A program made the position numbers and the translations under genes. From positions 12,217 to 46,556 of the forward strand of contig NVWI01000008.1 of assembly GCA_002746215.1 (NCBI GenBank): 34,340 nucleotides of DNA, written 5' to 3'. The stretch comes from SAR86 cluster bacterium (lineage in GTDB: Bacteria > Pseudomonadota > Gammaproteobacteria > Pseudomonadales > Pseudohongiellaceae). Below the pieces are notes generated by a model. That model saw only the letters and a list, made by a program, of their open reading frames with translations. It made no database searches and was not told the origin of the DNA. Below are positions 6,099-27,605 of the stretch, one piece after another. Numbering within the stretch: position 1 is the stretch's first letter; each line of letters opens with the position of its first letter.

Positions 6099-7472
6099 TC
6101 AATGAATTTCTTTTTTACTTGTTTGTCCTGATTTTACCCTGCGTTTGTGGGGTTTTGAAAGCGAGGAGTTTTGTAGCTTTTGTTGCATAGTCTGGCGCTG
6201 TTGAGGATCGGCTGCCTGATAACTTGTCCACCATTGTCCCAGGCCATTCAGATCTTCACCACTAGCTTCTCGCAGTAAAAGGAAATCATAAGCGGCCCGA
6301 AAGCGCTTTTTGGTGACCAGCAAAGCGGCTTTATTCCCAAAGCGACGTTCCAGGCGCAATTGGTACTCCCAGATTTCTCTCATAGGAATACTAAAGCGCT
6401 TAGGGATGGCAATGCGTGTCAGTTGCATTTCAATAATTTCTTGTCCGGCTTCATGCATGGCTGGCATTGGGGGCAAATTTGCAGAAATTTTTTGTTGGAA
6501 AGATCTTCTTACTGCTGGCCAAAGAATCGCGGCGAGCAGGAAAGCTGGTGTGACGCTTTTTGCATTCAATATGCGATCATCAGTACTTCGGAAAGCACCT
6601 TCGAGCATGACTCTATCCCTGTCGTCTGCAAAAGAAGTTAGCTTGGAAAGTGGTGGGAATAACACACTAATTACCTGATATAGAACGAGTTTATTAAATG
6701 TGATTAGTCCGCTGCCATTAAAGAAGAGTTTAAGGAATTCATCAAAAAGTCTGGCCGGAGGTATTGATTCAAGTAAAGAGGCGCAAGCTTTAATGGGCGC
6801 TTCAGTATTTGCTTCAATAGAAAAATTCAGTTTGCTTGCAAGTCTTATGGCTCGTAATATTCTGACAGGGTCTTCTCTATAGCGTTGCTCTGCGTCTCCA
6901 ATTATTCGTAAGGTTCGTTTATGAATGTCTGCCATGCCATGACAAAAGTCATGTACGGTAAACCCCTGGACAGTGTAATAGAGGGCATTAACCGTAAAGT
7001 CGCGTCGTAAAGCATCTTCTTCAATAGTTCCGTAGACATTATCTCTGAGTATCATGCCGCTTTGGTTATGGGCTGAATCAAGATGTTTTACATTACGCGC
7101 AAGGCTGTTACCGCTAATTTTCGTACTCTGACTGGCTTGGGCGCGAAAAGTAGACACTTCAATAATCTCGCGACCAAAGCGCACATGCACTATACGGAAG
7201 CGTCTCCCAATAATTCTGGAATTTCTGAAAATTTTAGTGACCTGTTCAGGAGTGGCATTTGTCGCTATATCGAAATCTTTTGGTTGTAAATTTACGAGCA
7301 GATCACGCACGCCACCACCCACAATATAAGCATCGAAGCCAGCGTCGTTTAGTTTGTATAGAACTTTCAATGCAGAAGGGCTTATCGCCTTTCGAGAAAT
7401 ACCATGCTCAGCGCGACGAATGATTATGGATTCAGTGGCTGGGGGAGTAACTTGTTTTGAAGGCTTGGTCAA
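6099..7472 (-). CDS. pcnB: Poly(A) polymerase I
   Basis: Adds 3' poly(A) tails to RNA, promoting decay of sRNAs and mRNA fragments. The 457-residue protein has the class II nucleotidyltransferase signature VGGGVRDLL (51-59) and the catalytic DFD at 66-68, followed by RRF-type RNA-binding motifs, EDALRRDFTVNALYY and GDAEQRYREDPVRILRAIR. The C-terminus is basic (KPHKRRVKSG), as in E. coli PcnB. The start appears to be TTG at 7470-7472: the preceding codons run back to a stop within four triplets, and the conserved region begins at about residue 20. No clear ribosome site is seen. E. coli pcnB also uses a weak start (AUU), so low translation may be conserved. A strong terminator and a CrcZ-like region lie upstream, as in Pseudomonas. 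Confidence 0.93.
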   Translation of the reverse strand: MTKPSKQVTPPATESIIIRRAEHGISRKAISPSALKVLYKLNDAGFDAYIVGGGVRDLLVNLQPKDFDIATNATPEQVTKIFRNSRIIGRRFRIVHVRFGREIIEVSTFRAQASQSTKISGNSLARNVKHLDSAHNQSGMILRDNVYGTIEEDALRRDFTVNALYYTVQGFTVHDFCHGMADIHKRTLRIIGDAEQRYREDPVRILRAIRLASKLNFSIEANTEAPIKACASLLESIPPARLFDEFLKLFFNGSGLITFNKLVLYQVISVLFPPLSKLTSFADDRDRVMLEGAFRSTDDRILNAKSVTPAFLLAAILWPAVRRSFQQKISANLPPMPAMHEAGQEIIEMQLTRIAIPKRFSIPMREIWEYQLRLERRFGNKAALLVTKKRFRAAYDFLLLREASGEDLNGLGQWWTSYQAADPQQRQTMQQKLQNSSLSKPHKRRVKSGQTSKKEIH

Positions 7473-7543
7473 AGTTATAAACTAATAAACTAAAGTCGTC
7501 ATTCTACACAAGTGGAGAGGCAATGAAGAGGTAATGAGGAAAT

Positions 7544-7580
7544 AAAAAAACCGGTAAGGTTTTAGCCTTACCGGTTTTTT
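7544..7580. terminator. Strong bidirectional intrinsic terminator
   Basis: The arms CCGGTAAGG (7551-7559) and CCTTACCGG (7566-7574) pair around a six-base loop, extended by an A6 run on the left and a T6 run on the right. On the minus strand it would end any transcript from the cbrB-pcnB interval before pcnB, giving a defined 3' end to the proposed sRNA. It also implies that pcnB needs its own promoter or read-through. Confidence 0.93.
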
Positions 7581-7960
7581 AAACTTTTCTTTTTATTATT
7601 ATTATTATCACATCCCTGTAGCAAAATTCGGAAACAAATTGTTACCTTTATCAGGGTATTCTTATCCCTTAAGTTGACCTCACGCTTCCCCCCTTGCTGT
7701 GCTGATGTTTCAGTTCTTGCAGCTTGGGTACAGCATAATGCTGTAAACCTGGATCAGATAATTGTTCTGCCAAAGTATTGTTATTATTATTAGTTTTTAA
7801 TTATTAAAGACAGACAACCAGCTAATACTAAGACAGTATTTGTAGCAAGTATATGGTTTATTTTAAATACACATATAAATCATATAGTTGCTTTAATTCA
7901 GGGGATTTTAATGCATTCAATGAAATGGCAAGTGGTGTTAAGAATTGTAACTATTGGGCG
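7544..7960 (-). ncRNA. Candidate CrcZ-like Hfq/Crc-titrating small RNA
   Basis: The 548 bp between cbrB and pcnB hold no convincing gene. In Pseudomonas this exact interval encodes CrcZ, about 400 nt long, whose AAnAAnAA motifs sequester Hfq/Crc and relieve catabolite repression (established knowledge). Seen here on the minus strand are one A-rich tract at 7777-7792 (AATAATAATAACAATA), a second at 7591-7608 (six consecutive AAT triplets), a small hairpin at 7730-7744 (ACAGCA/TGCTGT), and a 3' end at the strong terminator. The 5' end is a guess from a weak sigma-54-like element at 7972-7987, which would give a transcript of about 415 nt. The homology is by position and motif only; primary sequence similarity was not tested. 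An alternative is an mRNA leader of pcnB or decayed coding DNA. Confidence 0.45.
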
Positions 7961-7971
7961 GGTAATTTGGT

Positions 7972-7987
7972 AACAAAATATTTTCCA
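7972..7987 (-). promoter_or_regulatory. Weak sigma-54-like -24/-12 element
   Basis: On the minus strand TGGAAAATATTTTGTT places GG ten bases before GT, resembling the TGGCAC-N5-TTGCW consensus but with T for the nearly invariant C at -12 and a poor -24 half. It lies just after the cbrB stop, where the CbrB/RpoN-dependent crcZ promoter lies in Pseudomonas. It is kept only because position and spacing fit; a sigma-70 promoter is equally possible. Confidence 0.22.
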
Positions 7988-8020
7988 GCATTACGCTAGT
8001 AGATAGTCAATTATTAACTT

Positions 8021-9418
8021 TTAGAGGGATTTCTTTTGTCTCGGGATACCAAAACGTTGGCGTCTCTCCCATAGGCATTTACGGCTAATGCCCAGTTTTT
8101 TGGCTAGTTGTGTTTCGTTCATAGAGTCCTGGTGGTCAAGCACAAAGCGTTGAAAATAATCTTCGAGCGATAAGTCTTCTATTGGATCATCATCTATATT
8201 CTCGGTTTTATTATTAGCGTTTTCCATCAACTGAATGACGCTATTTTGGTTTTGCTGAATTTGTTCAATATTCAAGGAGTCAATTTCTATAAGTTCAACA
8301 TTAATTCCAAGCAGGTCTATCGGTATTTCTGATCCTTCTGTGAGAATTACGGCACGCTCTATAGCATTTTCCAGTTCTCTAATATTCCCAGGCCAGGGGT
8401 ACATGGTAATTGCCTGAATAGAATCGGCACTGAAATGCATAGTTTCCATACCTAGTCGGTTACAGATTAGCTTCAGTTTCTTATCAACCAATTCCAGTAT
8501 ATCTGCGCCTCGTTCGCGCAGTGGAGGAATATCTAAAGGCATGACATTTATCCGATAAAATAAATCTTCTCGAAAACGGCCTTCTTCGACAAACTGTTGT
8601 AAATTTCGGTGAGTAGCTGCGACCAGACGCACATCAACTTTGGTTGATTCAACTGAGCCGACTTTTCTGATTTCATGTTCTTGCAAGACGCGCAAAAGCC
8701 TTGCTTGTGCCTCTAGTGGTAGTTCTCCAATTTCATCAAGAAACAATGTGCCATTATTGGCTGCTTCTATAAGGCCAGTACGGGTGGTAGTAGCACCTAT
8801 AAATGACCCTTTTTCATGCCCAAACAGTTCAGATTCAATCAGGTTTTCAGGGATGGCAGCACAATTAATTGATATTAGATTAGAGTCGTTGCGTGAGCTA
8901 GCTTCATGCAGAGCTCTTGCGACTAATTCCTTGCCAGTCCCAGACTCACCTTGAATTAACACTGAGGAATTAGTGAGTGCTACTTTACGAATTCGTCTAA
9001 ACAATTCTTTCATTGTTGGGCAGCTGCCCACCATACCGGGAACAGGCTCTTCATTGGCATTTGTTATGATTTTGTTTGGTTCTGTTGTGATGGCTTTTAA
9101 TGCGGTCAGCACTTCTTCAGTTTCAAAGGGAATAGACAGGTATTCCATGGCACCACTCTTTGAGGTGCTAATGGCAGAACGTAAGCTGGCAAAATTACTA
9201 GTGATTAAAACGGGTGTAGACGTGTGTTTAATTAGCTCTGTGCCAAGAGAGTCAGGTAAGCGCAGGTTGCAAATAATGGCATCAAGTTGTTCTAAATTAA
9301 ACTCAAGAGCTTCGCTCACAGAAGAGCAAGTCAGGCTCTGAAAGCCAGCTTGTTCCACTATTTCAGTGATTTTACCAAGAGTCGCTTGGTTATTCTCTAC
9401 AAGTAATATAGTAGTCAT
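8021..9418 (-). CDS. cbrB: CbrB-like sigma-54-dependent regulator with degenerate receiver domain
   Basis: An NtrC-family activator of 465 residues. Receiver domain: 1-115; AAA+ domain: about 130-360 with Walker A GESGTGKE (157-164), Walker B LFLDE (225-229) and the R-finger region FYRINVMPLDIPPLRER; a Gln/Asn-rich linker follows; the Fis-type helix-turn-helix is at the end (ETQLAKKLGISRKCLWERRQRFGIPR). Position between gluQ and pcnB and the C-terminal sequence support CbrB, the regulator of carbon/nitrogen balance in Pseudomonas. Three receiver residues are lost: the acidic pocket reads VENN, the phospho-acceptor Asp is Asn51, and the conserved Lys of KPF is Ile96. The sigma-54 contact loop reads GSFIGA (204-209) instead of GAFTGA. 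No cbrA kinase gene lies beside it. It is probably phosphorylation-independent; whether it activates RpoN is uncertain. Confidence 0.85.
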   Translation of the reverse strand: MTTILLVENNQATLGKITEIVEQAGFQSLTCSSVSEALEFNLEQLDAIICNLRLPDSLGTELIKHTSTPVLITSNFASLRSAISTSKSGAMEYLSIPFETEEVLTALKAITTEPNKIITNANEEPVPGMVGSCPTMKELFRRIRKVALTNSSVLIQGESGTGKELVARALHEASSRNDSNLISINCAAIPENLIESELFGHEKGSFIGATTTRTGLIEAANNGTLFLDEIGELPLEAQARLLRVLQEHEIRKVGSVESTKVDVRLVAATHRNLQQFVEEGRFREDLFYRINVMPLDIPPLRERGADILELVDKKLKLICNRLGMETMHFSADSIQAITMYPWPGNIRELENAIERAVILTEGSEIPIDLLGINVELIEIDSLNIEQIQQNQNSVIQLMENANNKTENIDDDPIEDLSLEDYFQRFVLDHQDSMNETQLAKKLGISRKCLWERRQRFGIPRQKKSL

Positions 9419-9628
9419 AAACCGTGAATCGTATGAGAAAGCTGTCTAGGAAGGTCCTAAATCGACTTTGTAACGTTTTTAATAGTAATACTGTTCCCTT
9501 TCTACCCACTTTTAATGAAAAGTGCAATAGTAATAATCAAGAAGAGGAGGTTAATTTAAGTTCATAGCGCTAGCATAATTAGTTTCTTAACTTTCTTGGT
9601 AAATATTGTTTCTCAAGAAATTAGTCGC

Positions 9629-10549
9629 TTAATTCAGTAAACCTTCATCAAGTTGTTGTAAATTCTTCAATTTTTTAATTTTCCAGTTTTCAATAGCCCA
9701 TAATAGAATTTCTGAGGGCTTGCCGTCTTGAAGTTCAGCAGGAGGACGTTGTTGTAAATAAAGTAAAGCTTGGTACAAAGTGAGGGAGGGCTTATTTAGA
9801 TTTAAAGCTGTTGCATGATGTTGTTTACTTAGTTTTTGACCAAGTGAGTTGGTGATGACTGGAATATGGCTATAAACAGGTTGGGGGTAGTCTAGTAATT
9901 TTTGTAAATAAATTTGTCTATGACTGGAGCCAATCAGGTCGATGCCACGGACTATGTGGGTAATTTCCTGGAAAGTGTCATCAACGACAACTGCAAGTTG
10001 GTAAGAATATAAACCGTCTTTGCGTTTGATGATGAAGTCGCCGATTTCTGCTTCCAGGTTTTGAGATTGTTTCCCCTGCAATAAATCATCAAAGAACATA
10101 ATTGAATTAGAGACTTTGCAACGTAGAGCATAGTTTCCTGGTTCCAAGTCGGAACCTTTAATGTCGCGTAAGCTGCAAGTTCCTGGATAAATGCCTGAGC
10201 AGGCTCGTAAGTCTTGCCTGCTACAGATGCATGGAAAAACCAAGTCCTGCCTTTGTAACTGGGCTAGTGCATCATGATAGGCCTTGTGACGACGACTCTG
10301 GTATAAGACTTCACCATCCCAATTTAAATTTAAGCATTCAAGCGCTTGTAAAATTTGATTAGCCGCTTCGGTGCTTTCCCTAGGCGGGTCGAGATCCTCC
10401 ATGCGGACAAACCACTTGCCTTTATTTGCGCGAGCATCAAGATAGCTGGCTAGTGCAGCAATTAAAGAACCCGCATGTAAAGGGCCAGTAGGAGAGGGCG
10501 CAAAACGGCCTCGGTATGGAGAGATATCAAATTTCTTGGGAGCCGAAAT
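9629..10549 (-). CDS. gluQ: Glutamyl-Q tRNA(Asp) synthetase, probable ATT start
   Basis: Glutamylates the queuosine base at position 34 of tRNA(Asp). It is a short relative of the GluRS catalytic domain with no anticodon-binding domain. The full product has 306 residues, near the 308 of E. coli YadB. Motifs are RFAPSPTGPLHAGSL (HxGS signature), MEDLDPPRE, the zinc-site pattern CIC...YPGTC, and GQKLSKQ (KMSKS equivalent). The reading frame contains no ATG, GTG or TTG between an upstream in-frame stop inside dksA and codon 50 (the ATG at 10402), yet the essential N-terminal motif lies in that stretch. The best start is ATT at 10547-10549, five bases after the dksA stop, with GGGAG seven bases upstream. 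ATC at 10523-10525 or a CTG are alternatives, as is a base-call error. It is co-transcribed with dksA, as in many proteobacteria. Confidence 0.88.
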   Translation of the reverse strand: MSAPKKFDISPYRGRFAPSPTGPLHAGSLIAALASYLDARANKGKWFVRMEDLDPPRESTEAANQILQALECLNLNWDGEVLYQSRRHKAYHDALAQLQRQDLVFPCICSRQDLRACSGIYPGTCSLRDIKGSDLEPGNYALRCKVSNSIMFFDDLLQGKQSQNLEAEIGDFIIKRKDGLYSYQLAVVVDDTFQEITHIVRGIDLIGSSHRQIYLQKLLDYPQPVYSHIPVITNSLGQKLSKQHHATALNLNKPSLTLYQALLYLQQRPPAELQDGKPSEILLWAIENWKIKKLKNLQQLDEGLLN

Positions 10550-10562
10550 ATTCAGGCTCCCA
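10537..10562. promoter_or_regulatory. Hairpin spanning dksA stop and gluQ start
   Basis: GGGAGCC and GGCTCCC (10538-10544 and 10555-10561), plus an extra A-T pair, flank a ten-base loop. On the minus strand the 5' arm contains the last dksA codons and the probable gluQ ribosome site, and the loop contains the dksA TGA and the gluQ ATT. No T-run follows in the direction of transcription, so it looks like an RNA element for translational coupling rather than a standard terminator. A terminator between dksA and gluQ-rs has been reported in Shigella. Confidence 0.7.
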
Positions 10563-11175
10563 GTTGTTTTTCCTTGATTTCATCGAGTGTTTTACAATCA
10601 ATACATTTATTGGCTGTTGGGCGTGCCTCGAGACGACGAATACCAATTTCAACACCGCAGGAATTACAAAAGCCATAATCATCCTTTGCTATTTGCTCAA
10701 TAGTGGAATCAATTTTTTTAATCAAACGGCGTTCACGGTCACGAGTTCTCAGCTCAATGCTGAATTCCTCTTCGAGCGTAGCACGGTCAGCCGGATCTGG
10801 TGGGTTGGCGGCTTCATCTTGCATATGATGAACAGTCCTATCGACTTCTTCCATTAATTCATTGCGCCAGTTCAGTAATATATTTTTAAAATGAACGCGC
10901 TGCGCTTCATTCATATACTCTTCACCCCGTTTTATCTTATAGGGGGTAAATTCACTGACTTCAAAATGCGTATTAGGACTTTTTGGCTTGGCTTTAGCTG
11001 GGCTTACAGGTTTTTTTACAACGGTTTTCTTTGCCGCTGGTTTTTTCGCAGTAAGTGCTTTCTTAGCCACGGTCTTAGGCTTCGCAGTAGCTTTTTTAGG
11101 GCTGGCTTTTGCCTTAGCAGTCACTTTAGGCGTCGTTTTTTTGGCTTTAGTAGCCGGTTTTTTTTTGCTTACCAT
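10552..11175 (-). CDS. dksA: DksA transcription factor with H1-like N-terminal extension
   Basis: Binds RNA polymerase through the secondary channel and, with ppGpp, adjusts rRNA and amino-acid promoters. From about residue 70 the protein matches E. coli DksA closely: [32 protein letters not shown] with tip acids Asp127 and Asp130, [12 protein letters not shown], and a C4 zinc finger with Cys170, Cys173, Cys191 and Cys194. The first 65 or so residues are an extra Lys/Ala/Pro/Thr tail (repeats such as AKKPAAKK), giving 207 residues instead of about 150. That tail resembles histone H1 or AlgP-type DNA-binding tails, and is probably disordered. It starts at ATG 11175, with gluQ immediately downstream. 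The antisense hydrophobic frames here are artefacts of the Lys/Ala codons. Confidence 0.95.
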
Positions 11176-27504: not shown

Positions 27505-27605
27505 GGTTTATTAAATGTGGTCTTAAATTGGCAGGGTGCTTTCTAGATTACTTTTTTAGGGCGCTTTCTAGAGTGCTTTTTAAAAAAATTGTTAAGTAAA
27601 ACTGC

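Follow-up and report, generated by a model that had tools for sequence, protein, structure and literature searches.

A putative CrcZ-lineage small RNA downstream of an orphan cbrB in a SAR86 cluster bacterium

Results

The interval between cbrB and pcnB

The stretch of DNA analysed here, 34,340 nucleotides of contig NVWI01000008.1 of a SAR86 cluster bacterium (hereafter the window), contains a gap of 548 nt (7473-8020) flanked by a cbrB-like open reading frame (ORF) and by pcnB, both on the minus strand. The genes of the locus are as follows:

6099-7472, minus strand: pcnB (TIGR01942, above cut-off)
8021-9418, minus strand: orphan cbrB, encoding a receiver, a sigma54-interaction AAA+ domain and a C-terminal helix-turn-helix region (Pfam PF00072, PF00158)
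9419-9628, minus strand: site of cbrA (about 3 kb) in relatives; cbrA is absent here
9629-10402, minus strand: gluQRS (NF004314, above cut-off; the frame extends upstream with a GRFAPSPTG motif)
10552-11175, minus strand: dksA (TIGR02420, above cut-off)

The order dksA-gluQ-(cbrA)-cbrB-gap-pcnB is common to the relatives whose loci were fetched, wherever the contig extends far enough and the genes were matched. No ORF of at least 100 amino acids is listed between 7473 and 8020, in agreement with a preliminary description of this DNA, made from the letters alone, which had seen no convincing gene in the gap and had proposed a CrcZ-like small RNA there. The gap lies 3' of cbrB and 5' of pcnB on their common strand, and this cbrB-pcnB interval is indeed the one that crcZ occupies in Pseudomonas, as noted in that description and stated in a 2022 review (PMC8871633).

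Three observations were made on other genes of the window. The gluQRS frame upstream of its listed ATG (10403-10540) contains GRFAPSPTG and none of ATG, GTG or TTG, and its start codon is likely to be unusual. In DksA, a long Lys/Ala/Pro-rich N-terminal tail resembling those of histone H1 precedes a normal domain, Pfam DksA_N beginning at residue 92. Finally, just 101 nt (27505-27605) separate two ORFs which we take to be rpoN-like and ptsN-like; hpf usually sits between rpoN and ptsN, and 101 nt are too few to hold it.

A predicted small RNA conserved within the genus

The following features were located in the gap:

7544-7821, minus strand: predicted CrcZ-type small RNA (about 277 nt), alignable with its counterparts in the four congeners
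7777-7791, minus strand: 5' A-rich array of AAN repeats, AATAATAATAACAAT, a predicted Hfq distal-face site; 10 of 16 columns (7791-7776) invariant in five genomes
7585-7606, minus strand: 3' A-rich array, AATAATAATAATAAAAAGAAAA, i.e. (AAT)4 AAA AAG AAA; 16 of 23 columns (7610-7588) invariant
7545-7580, minus strand: intrinsic terminator, 15 pairs and then T-rich
7833-7848, minus strand: position of the sigma54 -24/-12 core, which in the window reads TTGCTACAAATACTGT and is altered with respect to the congeners
7936-7975, minus strand: predicted CbrB half-sites TGTTAC (7975-7970), GTTACA (7951-7946) and TTAACA (7941-7936)

Five genomes of the window's genus (g1, G000-G004) were returned, and their gaps can be aligned from the CbrB-site block through the terminator. 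Invariant in all five are 157 of the 278 columns of the RNA, 9 of 16 in the sigma54 core and 21 of 43 in the binding-site block, whereas the spacer that separates this block from the core has 10 of 85. The case for an RNA gene is carried by this conservation (157/278 against 10/85), because the arrays alone do not go beyond chance: in the A+T-rich gap of the window there are two A-rich spans where about 1.1 are expected (p = 0.3). CrcZ is recognised by several arrays of the AAnAAnAA type; two are present here, the 3' one having a length that fits six AAN triplets. The two tracts and the terminator were found where the preliminary description had placed them, on the strand of cbrB and pcnB, and the comparison with related genomes that it had proposed showed them to be conserved across the genus.

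Four terminator-like sites lie within 7400-8100 (two of them being the 7545-7580 hairpin read on both strands) versus 0.3 in shuffles, and the RNA of the window, terminator included, folds more stably than its shuffles (z = -3.48). RNAalifold predicted 69 pairs over the five genomes, seven with two-sided (compensatory) changes. Three of the seven belong to the stem of the terminator; the covariation term for the whole RNA is slightly unfavourable (+1.8). In the RNA body, counting the columns where the other four g1 genomes agree, the window has private differences in 6 of 163 columns and its four congeners 5 to 25 in 162 to 182.

A transcript starting near 7960 and running for about 415 nt had originally been suggested. 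We ruled this start out, since 7960 falls within the conserved CbrB-site block; the position of the conserved -24/-12 place (7848-7833) predicts a start near 7821 and thus a length of about 277 nt.

The promoter region of the window

At -24, all four congeners have TTGGCA; at -12, three have GC and one GT. In the window the -24 GG is GC and the -12 GC is GT, the latter being shared with L008. Across its whole gap the window reaches a sigma54 score of at most 10.0, versus 12.0-13.5 in the four congeners, on a consensus-based scale with a maximum of 14.5 whose threshold of 12 was fixed after scores had been seen. The string that reaches 10.0, TGGAAAATATTTTGTT (about 7987-7972), was rejected as it is not conserved in the genus. 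A sigma70 promoter in place of sigma54 was also considered and set aside: three weak promoter-like sites were found in the region versus 2.5 expected, none convincing by eye. The CbrB half-sites are kept in the window, but their spacing is unlike the consensus TGTTAC-N12-14-GTAACA-N15-19-GTAACA given in the review (PMC8871633).

The layout is widespread in the order

A cbrB-like protein was matched at E ≤ 1e-80 in all 57 genomes of the order; in G053 the sole match, at 36% identity, is probably to a paralogue. A wide set of 145 records was then made of loci L007-L070, the window and 80 named loci, which are the best 80 of 573 confirmed stretches ranked by likeness to the C-terminus of the window's CbrB. 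Removal of duplicates and of records with no match left 125 distinct cbrB loci, of which 120 entered the layout count. Those omitted have less than 250 nt downstream: L157 and L168, where pcnB was not found, and L020, L038 and L058, where the gap is truly short.

The layout was defined by three elements: a sigma54 core with a score of 12 or more (maximum 14.5), two or more GTTAC/GTAAC half-sites in the 170 nt upstream of it, and an AAnAAnAA array in the 60 nt downstream. In this set, which includes the best 80 of 573, it is found in 109 of 120 loci, in none of 2400 dinucleotide shuffles and on none of the 120 reverse strands. Where pcnB was found downstream the count is 103 of 110. Of the 21 families of the order that contributed a locus, 16 have the layout (15 of 20 other families and the window's own). 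The distance from -12 to the first array has a median of 15 nt (n = 110), and at least two A-rich spans are present in 116 of 120 loci versus 680 of 2400 shuffles. The eleven loci in which the layout is missing are L017, L018, L019, L043, L046, L047, L053, L189, L192, L212 and the window itself.

Two loci, L169 and L050, have very short CrcZ-like genes 3' of cbrB (about 100 nt by eye), each with a sigma54 core, two A-rich arrays and a terminator-like hairpin.

CbrB without CbrA

The CbrB of the window is 76-81% identical to that of three congeners and 73% identical, over a partial match, to that of the fourth. The CbrB of G004 looks disrupted; this was treated as an assembly error, pcnB there also being split over three frames. 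Walker A and B motifs are kept in the window's CbrB, and the following positions are altered:

9389-9394, minus strand: acidic pair of the receiver, NN (residues 9-10), DE in relatives
9266-9268, minus strand: phospho-acceptor Asp replaced by Asn (residue 51)
9131-9133, minus strand: conserved receiver Lys replaced by Ile (residue 96)
8792-8809, minus strand: GAFTGA loop, here GSFIGA, with Ile (ATA codon) at the position of Thr

The receiver of the window thus reads NN, N and I in place of DE, D and K. CbrA was searched for in 22 of the 57 genomes at E ≤ 1e-30, with a CbrA protein of g8 as query. No match was obtained in any of the five g1 genomes (G000-G004), in any of five g2 genomes, in G047 or in G037 (75% complete). 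The other ten genomes were matched, one of them being the query's own; the match in G049 covers a part of the protein, at 27% identity.

At the level of loci, cbrA lies directly upstream in 109 of 125; in 108 of these the receiver keeps DE, D and K, and the start of the remaining one cannot be read. Among the 16 loci with no cbrA match, two of which (L017 and L218) have their upstream sequence cut off, 14 receivers are readable and 12 have lost at least one of DE, D and K, those of L054 and L157 being intact. A tree of CbrB (AAA+ and C-terminal part, 124 rows), computed by a quick method and with several long branches meeting, has six changes of cbrA presence and four of receiver state. Across independent pairs on this tree cbrA and receiver change in the same direction in three on average and in opposite directions in none; only four such pairs are supported, too few for significance.

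The Thr of GAFTGA, described as critical in PspF in an earlier study (PMC2941729), is replaced in 3 of the 109 loci with cbrA (by Ser, Ile and Ala) and in 7 of the 16 without it, the window included. One locus with cbrA, L182, combines a GAFIGA loop with a good sigma54 site and six arrays, so that Ile at the place of Thr is no proof of lost sigma54 activation. The low sigma54 score, the altered core (-24 GG to GC) and the Ile in the loop nevertheless suggest that the window's own species may have lost this route, and sigma54-driven expression of the RNA is doubtful there.

In four g2 loci (L018, L019, L020 and L038), cbrA and, 3' of cbrB, the sigma54 site and the A-rich arrays are lost or nearly so, while cbrB is kept and encodes DAFPGA or GAFNGA loops; CbrB may have a sigma54-free role.

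Relation to CrcZ by sequence

The preliminary description had proposed a covariance search with the Rfam model of CrcZ (RF01675). The window is not matched by this model, and the best score in its own genome, 16.4 bits at other places, stays below the gathering score of 95 bits. In the order, 41 of 194 genomes are matched at E ≤ 0.001 and nine exceed the cut-off; in four g3 genomes, which belong to the window's family, the match falls in the cbrB-pcnB gap with E values of 4e-9 to 2e-7, below the cut-off. Weak matches of other Rfam families in the window (snoRNA, miRNA and the like) all score under their gathering scores, lie mostly over the terminator hairpin and an A-rich stretch, and were taken as noise.

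A profile built from genus g8 matches the congener L010 with E = 9e-7 and 22.6 bits, the best of 615 decoys reaching 4.8 bits; on the window it scores 4.0 bits, i.e. inside the decoy range. A profile of the genus matches other genera weakly (L017 at 12.1 bits, L151 at 8.5 bits, best decoy 3.2). With no RF01675 match and 4.0 bits from the g8 profile, the link by sequence between the window and CrcZ is therefore indirect, while the link by synteny and layout is strong. The proposed likeness to CrcZ is borne out by synteny and by what relatives show of the promoter layout, the A-rich arrays and the terminator; the start and length first given were wrong.

Hfq and Crc

The genome encodes Hfq, whose sequence keeps the stretch YLISGIKLQGQ, which holds distal-face residues. 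Crc, for which a look elsewhere in the genome had been suggested, was not found there: two PF03372 proteins are present, neither being Crc by similarity. On contig C11 the Exo_endo_phos protein belongs to the ExoA/APE type, its best PDB match scoring 300 bits and Crc 115, and the protein on C8 clusters with another set. None lies beside pyrE in the 3.5 kb covered there.

The Crc query was L094 of G041, whose best PDB match is Crc at 270.7 bits, the next being an exodeoxyribonuclease III entry at 263.6. Among the 57 genomes searched, it scores at best 122-153 bits (ExoA-type) in every g1, g2 and g8 genome, and 194-300 bits in genomes with Crc or a Crc-like protein (632 in its own), a range that pools true Crc and Crc-like exonucleases. 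Scores of the latter size are also absent in G010, G019, G029, G034, G037, G051, G052 and G053. Absence of Crc does not track absence of cbrA, because g8 has cbrA and no Crc while G047 is the reverse.

Discussion

We propose that the gap encodes a small RNA of the CrcZ lineage, that CbrA is gone and CbrB has become a pseudo-receiver protein, and that the RNA would act on Hfq alone; we give this reading a probability of about 0.7. The RNA would be transcribed from about 7821 to 7545 on the minus strand and, through its A-rich arrays, would bind and titrate Hfq, with no Crc found to assist. In the genus it would be driven by CbrB, bound at the half-sites, at a sigma54 promoter, as in Pseudomonas. 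Because the kinase CbrA appears to be gone and the receiver to be a pseudo-receiver, CbrB would act unphosphorylated, and an earlier report describes CbrB as 'barely dependent on phosphorylation' (PMC6296734). The RNA level might then follow the amount of CbrB, read-through from cbrB, which maintains basal CrcZ according to the 2022 review (PMC8871633), or another input. The simplest reading is of an Hfq decoy that has outlived the loss of its sensor. The non-canonical activator first suggested for this organism takes a form that had not been foreseen, i.e. a CbrB with no CbrA and a receiver with no phospho-acceptor.

Since the promoter core of the window is altered while the RNA body has only 6 of 163 private differences, the RNA of this species would either be served by another promoter or by read-through, or be a recent relic. 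More tentatively, and with odds somewhat short of even, the carbon-signalling pathway may have been shortened from the top: the kinase deleted, the receiver turned into a pseudo-receiver, no Crc, and the decoy RNA retained to buffer Hfq, with its tie to the CbrA signal severed and perhaps, in the species of the window, that to sigma54 as well.

That the RNA gene of this species is only a relic, its own promoter having fallen silent and the gene disappearing as in the related genus g2, where most arrays and the promoter are lost, we consider unlikely. In favour of this reading are both promoter substitutions of the window (-24 GG to GC, -12 GC to GT), its GSFIGA loop, and the five g2 loci, with best sigma54 scores of 9.5-11, zero to two arrays and DAFPGA, GTFPGA or GAFNGA loops. 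The RNA body, however, has 6 private differences in 163 columns versus 5 to 25 in 162 to 182 in the congeners, which argues that it was constrained until recently; L182, with GAFIGA, cbrA, a good sigma54 site and six arrays, indicates that Ile need not kill the system, and read-through from cbrB could still yield the RNA (PMC8871633). It is more improbable still that the conserved block is the 3' untranslated region of cbrB with its terminator, or the leader of pcnB, with no independent RNA. The block does lie on the strand of both genes and the window has no clean promoter, but a sigma54 core and upstream half-sites precede the arrays in 109 of 120 loci, the terminator of the window stands between the arrays and pcnB, and crcZ holds the same place in Pseudomonas (PMC8871633). 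A chance origin of the arrays in A+T-rich spacer DNA, with which the two spans of the window taken alone would agree (p = 0.3), is hardly credible given that their position is conserved across the genus and that at least two spans occur in 116 of 120 loci versus 680 of 2400 shuffles.

According to the 2022 review, the cbrA-cbrB-crcZ organisation has not been described beyond Pseudomonas and Azotobacter, and the system is unique to the Pseudomonadaceae (PMC8871633). The preliminary description, which had placed the candidate outside the canonical Pseudomonas context, agrees with that review; the same layout in 16 of the 21 families that contributed a locus shows the locus to be widespread in the order. 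Natural lineages that have lost the sensor, the phosphorylation site or Crc offer test cases for the part that phosphorylation and Crc play in RNAs titrating Hfq.

Two known systems serve for comparison. Unlike CbrAB, the system of the window has no CbrA found in its genome, a receiver that lacks the phospho-acceptor Asp, the acidic pair and the Lys, and GSFIGA for GAFTGA; like CbrAB, it has a CbrB with a sigma54 AAA+ domain, the C-terminal motif SRKCLWERRQR and the same neighbours. The second is CrcZ (RF01675) of Pseudomonas and Azotobacter, the kind of RNA with which Pseudomonas sequesters Hfq once preferred carbon sources are exhausted. CrcZ of P. aeruginosa is 407 nt long and has six A-rich stretches, through which it titrates Hfq in vitro, Hfq being the main regulator that represses catabolic mRNAs at A-rich ribosome-binding sites and Crc being ancillary (PMC4063720). 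The predicted RNA differs in being about 277 nt long, in having two arrays rather than six, in not matching the Rfam model, and in coming from a genome where cbrA and Crc were not found. It resembles CrcZ in its place between cbrB and pcnB, its strand, its A-rich arrays and its terminator and, in the congeners, in the CbrB half-sites and sigma54 core that lie upstream.
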